Shown in pieces: positions 29,119-31,814 of a DNA stretch of 64,000 bases; within the stretch, counting starts at the first letter, position 1, and each line of letters opens with the position of its first letter. The DNA is taken from NCBI GenBank assembly GCA_029552245.1, contig JAKPDW010000001.1:1-64000 (forward strand), written 5' to 3'. A program made the translations under genes and the position numbers. The notes beneath the pieces were generated by a model. The model searched no databases, was not told where the DNA came from, and worked only from the letters and a program-made list of their open reading frames with translations. This DNA is from Deltaproteobacteria bacterium (GTDB lineage Bacteria > Desulfobacterota > Desulfomonilia > UBA1062).

Positions 29119-29122
<4 letters not shown>

Positions 29123-30320
29123 CTGTCGGATTCCTTTGCGATGCCCCCGTCGAAGGCCTTTTCGACGCCCTGCGTGACGATGCGTTCTCCTGGCGCCAGG
29201 CCTGAGAGCACCACGACGCCCGAATCCCGTAGGGGACCCTCCCTGATGAGGCGCAGTGTCACGAGGTTGGAATCGCCGACCACGTACACCGCAGAGAGGT
29301 GGCCCCTGCGGACGACGGCCTGCTTCGGGACGACGACCTCCTGCCTCTGGCCCGTCTGGATCTCGACCCGGCAGGACAGCCCCGATCTCAACGGGGTGTG
29401 AGGGACGTCGATCTTTATCCTGAAGGTGCGCGTGACCGGGTCCACATCGGGCAGGACGTCCCGTATGGAGCCCTTCAGCGTCCTTGCAGGGGCGTCCAGG
29501 CGGACGACCACGGGCATCCCCGGTCTGACGACGCCCCCGAGCCCCTGGTCCACGTCGGCCTCGATGTACGCACCCTCGATGCTTTCCATCTCCAAGAGCG
29601 GGGTTCCGGGCACGGCCATGTCGCCCGTCTCTACACGCTTGACGGTCACACCCCGGCAAAGGGGGCCGTTATGCGCGTGTAGTCGAGATAGGCCCGGGCC
29701 TCGCGCACGGAGGCGAGCGCCCTCTCGTACTCCGCCCTTGCCACCTTCATGGAGATCTCGGCCTCGTCGAGGGACTGGAGGGACACGGCCTGCCTCTCGT
29801 AGAGGGCCTTCATGCGTTTCCACGTCGAGGAGGCCAGGGACAGCCGCTGGGATGCGGCGTCGAGTGCCTCGAGGGCGGCCTTGTGCCTCTGGGCGATGTC
29901 CGTGTCATCTATGGTGAGGAGAAGCGAAGAGGTCTTCACCAGGTCCCCTTCCTTCACGGCGATGGAGCTCACCCTGCCCATGACCTTGCTCGAGATGGCC
30001 GCCCTCCTGTCCGAGCGGACCGTTCCCGTGACCTCGACGAAGCTCGTAGTCGTCGTGGGCCTGATCTCGGACACCTTCACCCCCCTGATCTCGGCCCTGG
30101 CCCCTTGAGGCGACTCCACGCCCGGTGAGCAGCCGTGAGCAAGGGCCGTCGCCATGGCCAGGACGCAGAGCGTGAGGACCGCGTGCGAGAACGATCCACC
30201 GCTTACGTGCGAGGTGGACAGGGGCGCAGGTGGAGTGGGGGGACATGCCGCGCAGCTCGCCTTGCAGGCCGACCTTCCACAGCCGCTGTAGGCGGCGGAT
30301 TCCGAGGACATGGACGGCAC
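29119..30320 (-). pseudogene. RND membrane-fusion lipoprotein, split by a one-base frameshift
   Basis: The periplasmic adaptor of the pump is encoded in two frames. The N-terminal part (to about 29646) has a lipobox-like ALAHGC, the barrel-sandwich start (SKVMGRVSSIAVKEGDLVKT) and coiled coil, ending YTRITAPFAGV then TGA; the other frame continues with TVKRVETGDMAVPGTPLLEM to the end. One base is missing near 29648. The start is GTG at 30320 with GGAGG 8 bases upstream, giving an unusually long cysteine-containing stretch before the lipobox. The intact permease suggests a sequence error or a recent mutation. Confidence 0.85.
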
Positions 30321-30387
30321 TGCCCTCACCTCCAAAGAGATATTTCACGCCGGCAGTGGACTCGATCCACCCGGCAGACTCGTTGAT

Positions 30388-30485: not shown

Positions 30486-30794
30486 TCAGCAGCTCGTGCA
30501 CCCCCCGCAGTCCGCCTTGATGCCCGTCTTCACCACGAACCCCTCGCCGCGCGGGGTTGTGACGTAGTCCACGGTCACCGGCTTCACCTCCTCGAGGAGC
30601 TTCTTCTCGATGACGAAGGTGAATCCGCCCTTTTCGAAGATCTCGTCTCCGTCTTTTGACTCGTCCAGAGCCAGGCCCATCTGGGGCCCGCCTCAGCCCA
30701 CGCCCGCGATGAAGACCCTCAGGGGCTCGACGCCCTGGCGGCTCTTGAAGAACTCGCCTACCATCTCGATCGCCTTTTCCGTTACGGTGAACAT
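30486..30794 (-). CDS. HesB-like selenoprotein (in-frame UGA = Sec34)
   Basis: Translation from the ATG at 30794 (AAGGAGG six bases upstream) gives MFTVTEKAIEMVGEFFKSRQ and on to FIAGVG, then an in-frame TGA (30695-30693), then GGPQMGLALDESKDG to a Cys-rich end (DCGGCTSC). The nearby paralogue has Cys at exactly this place (GMGCSGVQLGMAL), so the TGA most likely encodes selenocysteine. Read through, it is 102 residues, the normal size of the HesB/IscA-like (TIGR01911) family, several members of which are known selenoproteins. Iron-sulfur assembly or sulfur/selenium handling is the expected role. A conventional gene finder would see only the last 64 residues. Confidence 0.88.
30660..30692 (-). 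promoter_or_regulatory. candidate bacterial SECIS hairpin
   Basis: Just after the UGA the mRNA can fold GGGCCC with GGGCCU around a CAGAU loop (30689-30673), or CCAGA with UCUGG around a loop with G among its first two bases (30684-30665). Both are plausible bacterial SECIS-like shapes; the loop is nearer to the UGA than usual in the first fold. Structure is hand-predicted. Confidence 0.5.
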
Positions 30795-31496
30795 CGTGTT
30801 CCTCCTTTTTTCGTGGAGTGAGCCCCAGGCCGAGGAGGTCCTTGGCGCACCCCGGGTTTATATCCTTTCAGCCGTTCTTGTTGTATCGTCCGGCCGTCTT
30901 CTCCAGTCAACCTCGTGCACCCGTGCTCGTGCCCGAGGACACCGGACGGGTTCCCCCCTCTTACCCGATCTTTCCTTCCCCATCAAGGCCGCTGGGACGG
31001 TGCTGTCGACCGGCACGCCCGGCGGGCCGGACCTGTTTGTACAACCGGTTTGTACAGATGGATCCCCGTGCTTAGCCATGGAAGCCTTGCTGTCCGGGTG
31101 CCTTCTCCCGGGCGGGCGGATGCTCCCACTGCCTTGGGATGAGCCGGCAGGGGATGTCCCCAAGGTCTTTCTGAGGGGGATGCCCCCCCTGCCTTGGGGG
31201 TGAACCGCCGTCCCGGCACGAGAACGAGGCCGACCGTGAAGGTCTTGCTCCATGATCCCCCACGCCCTGGCAGGCAAATCGCGAGACGCTATGGGACCGA
31301 ACCCGGCCTGGACGGCGGTACCGTCGTCCAGGGCACGATGAGGGGCGGCCTGCTCTTGCCTGGTATCACGGCCAGGACGCTCGCCTGCCGAGAGACGGAA
31401 GGCGCCGGTCCGCCGGCGCCTGCCCCCGGTGCCTCGAGGCCTCGGCAGACCATGCATGACCTCATGTGTCACATCGGTTTGCACGTTGTCGTGCGC
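30795..31496. other. intergenic region between the two HesB-like genes
   Basis: No gene recognised. A weak promoter for the selenoprotein gene lies at 30882-30910. At 31036-31056 TTTGTACA occurs twice at 13-base spacing around ACCGG, an operator-like site. The rest is GC-rich and featureless. Confidence 0.5.
30882..30910 (-). promoter_or_regulatory. weak promoter candidate for the selenoprotein gene
   Basis: On the - strand, TTGACT (30910-30905) is followed after 17 bases by GATACA. The -10 match is poor. Confidence 0.35.
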
Positions 31497-31814
31497 TCAG
31501 CACCCACAACACCCCCCCGAGCACCCGGAGCCCGGCTTGAGGGAAGAGGAGATGACGAAGCCCTCTCCCTGCGAGGTGGTCACGTAGTCTATCTTGATGG
31601 GCTTGGCCGTCTCGTAGAGCTGGTTTTCGATCAGGTAGGTATAGCCGTCGATCTCGAACGTGCGGTCGTTCTCGTTCGCTTCGTCAAGGGCCATGCCCAG
31701 CTGCACGCCGCTGCACCCCATGCCAGCCACGAATACCCGTACGGGCTCCACCTTTTCCCTTCCCTTGAAGAACTGCCCGATCATCTCCGTCGCCTTCCTG
31801 GTCACTTCCAACAT
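31497..31814 (-). CDS. HesB-like protein, cysteine form
   Basis: The 105-residue paralogue of the selenoprotein shares the same layout: MLEVTRKATEMIGQFF, VRVFVAGMGCSGVQLGMALD, IDYVTTSQGEGF, and a Cys-rich tail (GSGCSGGCCGC). Cys replaces Sec in the conserved position. AAGGAG stands 7 bases before the ATG. HesB/IscA-like proteins carry iron or Fe-S clusters through three conserved cysteines, matching these. Confidence 0.93.
   Translation of the reverse strand: MLEVTRKATEMIGQFFKGREKVEPVRVFVAGMGCSGVQLGMALDEANENDRTFEIDGYTYLIENQLYETAKPIKIDYVTTSQGEGFVISSSLKPGSGCSGGCCGC

Follow-up and report, generated by a model that had tools for sequence, protein, structure and literature searches.

A HesB/IscA-like gene interrupted by an in-frame UGA is almost certainly an intact selenoprotein gene with a tandem cysteine paralogue

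The window analysed here, a stretch of 64,000 nucleotides, carries two neighbouring HesB/IscA-like genes on its minus strand (Table 1). In one of them, an open frame of 33 codons leads to an in-frame UGA and is followed by 68 further codons up to a terminal UGA; AAAAAAGGAGGAACACG stands directly upstream of its ATG. Read with UGA as selenocysteine (U), the frame translates as MFTVTEKAIEMVGEFFKSRQGVEPLRVFIAGVGUGGPQMGLALDESKDGDEIFEKGGFTFVIEKKLLEEVKPVTVDYVTTPRGEGFVVKTGIKADCGGCTSC, followed by the stop. The other gene lies upstream at a gap of 702 nt and has a cysteine at the position aligned with the UGA (GMGCSGVQLGMAL). The preliminary description had reported a ribosome site, an ATG, 33 codons, a TGA and an open frame beyond, as well as a cysteine paralogue about 700 bp away. 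Translation of the minus strand bears out this layout and also establishes the strand, which had not been given. Its statement that conventional annotation would be limited to the last 64 residues was likewise correct: a mechanical ORF finder calls only these, at 30486-30680, from an internal ATG.

Table 1. Features of the HesB/IscA-like locus in the window
Feature	Position	Strand	Description	Basis
HesB/IscA-like selenoprotein gene	30486..30794	-	102 codons and stop; ATG 30794-30792, terminal TGA 30488-30486	NF038090 match; UGA homologues of the same length
In-frame UGA	30693..30695	-	Codon 34, predicted selenocysteine	Translation; PDB alignment to IscA/HI1723; UGA kept in 72 homologues
Shine-Dalgarno site	30801..30806	-	AGGAGG, 6 nt 5′ of the ATG	Sequence; AGGAG-type site at the same place in most homologues
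SECIS-like hairpin	30657..30673	-	UGGCUC-UGGAC-GAGUCA, 6 bp	Pairing conservation; UGA/Cys contrast; minimum-energy fold without the first 15 nt
Tandem cysteine paralogue	31497..31814	-	105 aa, GMGCSGVQLGMAL	NF038090, 105.5 bits; hairpin state; 55% identity to the selenocysteine copy

A second selenocysteine at the terminal UGA was considered and rejected. This codon is read as an ordinary stop because in many homologues the same CTSC is followed directly by TAG or TAA.

Adjoining the selenoprotein gene, an RND periplasmic adaptor gene (29119-30335, minus strand) is present as two frames, split near 29650. Compared with TIGR01730, the first piece covers positions 1-144 and the second positions 145-316. 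The adaptor of a genus mate (G014) seems to be unbroken. We attribute the split in the window to a frameshift or an assembly error.

The protein matches NF038090 (IscA_HesB_Se) over residues 1-101 with 103.3 bits, above the curated cut-off of 85. The membership of TIGR01911 (HesB_rel_seleno) proposed earlier does not hold, as the score of 42.1 bits (39.8 in another search) falls below the curated cut-off of 66.35. The window protein nevertheless shares with the TIGR01911 ‘HesB-like’ selenoproteins (motif UxGP) the domain family, the position of the UGA and the UGGP motif. Within NF038090 it is an ordinary member with a tandem cysteine copy: the full-length match, the UGGP motif, the Cys-rich C-terminus and a selenocysteine at the IscA ligand position are all shared, and nothing sets the window gene apart. 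The selenoprotein family to which it belongs is thus known already. HesB-like selenoproteins in Deltaproteobacteria have been on record since 2006, with Syntrophobacter, Syntrophus, Desulfovibrio and Geobacter among the examples (PMC1794560), and a 2026 review lists the HesB-like selenoprotein as TIGR01911 with the motif UxGP (PMC13188914). For an archaeal HesB-like protein, that of Methanococcus maripaludis, mutagenesis and 75Se labelling identified a selenoprotein (as cited in PMC11097638); according to PMC11097638, it is unclear what HesB-like selenoproteins do.

Further HesB-like UGA genes, mostly shorter (95-103 aa, e.g. with UGGPQLRLA), were observed in taxonomic family mates (L044-L051); the shorter ones among them (L044, L046-L051) measure 95-99 aa. 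Their hairpin loops read AGGAU or UGGAU/C, and the genes co-occur in several of these family mates. Genes of this shorter type were not found in the genome of the window.

An AlphaFold2 model built from ten sequences reached a mean pLDDT of 77.5, with an unreliable C-terminal tail. Foldseek matched the predicted fold to IscA (1x0g, with a [2Fe-2S] cluster; 1r94; 1s98), SufA (2d2a) and HI1723. In the PDB alignment, Sec34 coincides with the cysteine of SGCSG in IscA/HI1723, i.e. IscA Cys35, the first conserved cysteine and an established metal ligand of this family. The C-terminal CGGC (C96, C99) occupies the place of Cys99 and Cys101 in IscA. Model and alignment together give an A-type fold with three ligand positions, Sec34, C96 and C99, the last two lying in the tail of low model confidence. 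The predicted fold and the ligand layout, one mid-protein position and two C-terminal cysteines, are those of the A-type Fe-S carriers IscA, SufA and ErpA. The window protein differs from them in having selenocysteine in place of Cys35 and a C-terminal CGGC in place of CGC, and its identity to IscA over the structural alignment is 24-27%.

The UGA is widely conserved. Within the order, the family was found in 19 of 24 genomes, nearly every match having exactly one internal TGA; in a sample of the phylum it was found in 141 of 297 genomes, mostly with one TGA. In the extracted homologous proteins the TGA always falls at one aligned codon, where other homologues have cysteine. One NF038090 match (G241:C66:233-529) has two in-frame TGA codons and is possibly a two-selenocysteine member or a damaged gene.

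This distribution bears on the view that a nonsense mutation or a sequencing error broke an ordinary HesB gene, whose work is done by the cysteine paralogue. The paralogue is indeed intact and close by. However, dozens of independently assembled genomes share the UGA at this codon, with no other stop ever taking its place, which excludes both a sequencing error and a recent nonsense mutation. Moreover, the frame downstream is open and conserved up to the C-terminal cysteine motif, and the hairpin described below is conserved together with the UGA. Judged from these comparative data, the pseudogene reading is already refuted, and we leave it virtually no probability. Translation could instead start downstream and yield the 64-residue protein of the standard annotation, for which an in-frame ATG exists at 30680-30678. 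Such a start would leave unexplained the conservation of the first 33 codons among homologues and the strong Shine-Dalgarno site, and its product would miss the initial third of the IscA fold as well as the conserved ligand; we consider it wholly improbable. The gene looks broken by a stop codon, yet it is almost certainly intact, with UGA for selenocysteine like many of its relatives.

The genome of the window (95 contigs, 99.3% complete) contains the selenium machinery whose presence was to be checked according to the preliminary description. The genes selB (339.7 bits), selA (523.9) and selD (390.1) all score over their curated cut-offs, and selC is present as a tRNA-Sec (74.5 bits) with the anticodon UCA (ARAGORN). 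The selD gene carries an in-frame UGA of its own, in GAGUACK. These genes are relevant to a reading in which a suppressor or an altered code inserts another amino acid, tryptophan or cysteine, at the UGA. Some other bacteria recode UGA as tryptophan, so the idea has precedent, but here a dedicated tRNA-Sec, selA, selB and selD are present, all homologues lacking the UGA have cysteine at the site and never tryptophan, and many homologous genes end normally in UGA. We regard insertion of another amino acid as very unlikely.

One relative (genome G224) has neither selA nor selB over the cut-off and no tRNA-Sec. Its single listed family member (L110) has cysteine and a hairpin UGGCUC-UAGAU-GAGCCU in which the stem survives and the loop G is lost, as would be expected of a fossil left by a change from Sec to Cys. 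A remnant of comparable kind has been published for a HesB-like gene of Desulfitobacterium hafniense, as the legend to Figure 4 of PMC1794560 indicates. Two genus mates (G012, G013) and a family mate (G007) with UGA-containing HesB genes gave no detectable selA in assemblies that are 98-99% complete, and selB was likewise not detected in G013. All three keep the tRNA-Sec, and the missing genes are probably assembly gaps. Nevertheless, with three cases without selA in a single family, an alternative Sec synthase is worth looking for.

Bacterial SECIS elements are described as stem-loops immediately 3′ of the UGA whose small apical loop contains a G (PMC1088965). The window gene has such a hairpin. 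It occupies nt 23-39 counted from the UGA, beginning 19 nt after it; the loop of five bases starts 25 nt after the UGA and has G at its second position. Among 26 UGA genes of the order, 100% of the hairpin cells are paired and two pairs show double-sided changes, while sliding the partner by one to three bases lowers the pairing to 19-51%. In one sequence the helix is replaced by UUUCUC/GAGAAA. All 72 UGA homologues have the five inner pairs and the apical G, against 0 of 36 cysteine homologues (n=108; Fisher 1.7e-29, a value that ignores kinship). Phylogenetically independent Sec/Cys contrasts on the protein tree agree with the hairpin in 12 of 12 cases (sign test p=0.0005). The window’s own cysteine paralogue has a destroyed hairpin, UGGCCC-UUGAC-GAAGCG. 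Furthermore, where homologues read ALDE at the hairpin, the alanine codon is GCU in 60/60 UGA genes, whereas the cysteine genes use GCC in 9/10 and GCU in 1/10. As a synonymous choice, this preference for GCU cannot be accounted for by the protein.

When the 48 nt starting at the UGA are folded alone, the lowest energy belongs to a different, stronger hairpin that uses nt 2-28. It was rejected as the SECIS candidate: homologues lack it, and the weaker hairpin is common to them. The conserved hairpin becomes the minimum-energy fold once the first 15 nt, which would lie beneath a ribosome positioned at the UGA, are omitted. Motif and spacing together have one match in the window and none in 100 shuffles, which serves as a uniqueness check only, since this family supplied the pattern. 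A search of this region against Rfam returned nothing at E up to 1, and the SECIS assignment therefore rests on comparative evidence rather than on a library.

Taken together, we are highly confident that the UGA at codon 34 is decoded as selenocysteine. The earlier proposal of a real selenocysteine site rather than a broken gene is supported by the machinery, by the conserved UGA and by a bacterial-type hairpin, evolutionarily tied to that codon, where a SECIS fold 3′ of the UGA had been suggested as a check. All of the suggested checks that can be made by computation came out positive. Computation establishes the frame, the family and the fold, the machinery, the conservation of UGA and hairpin, and the lack of both in the cysteine copies. 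Insertion and read-through are inferred from the conservation of this machinery and of the hairpin. The hairpin would recruit SelB with Sec-tRNA-Sec, and the ribosome would insert selenocysteine at codon 34 and continue to the terminal UGA past residue 102. In the protein, Sec34 would stand in for IscA Cys35 among the three residues that bind iron or a [2Fe-2S] cluster. With this selenolate ligand, the protein would probably serve in the transfer of Fe-S or iron or in redox chemistry linked to a cluster. Judging by fold and ligand position, we somewhat favour such a carrier role.

The cysteine copy next door points to a recurrent arrangement. Among the genomes examined, 17 have same-strand tandem selenocysteine and cysteine copies, a number that is no frequency, as the sample was picked partly because pairs were seen. 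The gaps range from 25 to 702 nt, both gene orders occur, and at least four families are represented (f1, f16, f17, f41). In the protein tree, built on about 108 columns and with many forks open, cysteine copies tend to group with the selenocysteine copies of their own lineage, and well-supported branches force at least 12 Sec/Cys changes. Both features indicate that pairs arose several times; the cysteine copy of the window would have come from a duplication within the lineage. No prior account of tandem Sec/Cys HesB pairs was found in the literature searched, which was limited in coverage.

One genome (L098 in G251) has a Cys-Sec-Cys triplet of HesB genes on one strand, with gaps of 25 and 242 nt. 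Apart from the HesB pair, a comparison muddied by antisense frames revealed no gene neighbourhood common to the phylum; a single genus mate (G014) showed the order Cys-HesB, Sec-HesB, RND adaptor, RND pump.

The neighbouring cysteine copy is probably a partner or a selenium-independent counterpart. Our best guess for the pair is an A-type Fe-S or iron carrier with a selenolate ligand and a sulphur-only partner or backup. Many pairs lie 51-136 nt apart, which suggests joint transcription and argues mildly against a pure backup under selenium starvation. A bolder proposal is that the two copies form a functional pair, repeatedly made by local duplication and working together (e.g. in an A-type dimer of mixed Se/S composition or in a carrier relay), instead of one copy standing in for the other under selenium shortage. 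We put this forward tentatively and consider it rather doubtful.

For annotation, the standard call at this locus would drop more than one third of a conserved protein along with its presumed metal-binding residue, and is corrected here. The selenoprotein as such was to be expected more than the repeated Sec/Cys pairs, and it is the pairs that are mainly of interest. Recurring as neighbours in at least four bacterial families, they are matched by nature and lend themselves to studying the contribution of selenium to an Fe-S carrier.
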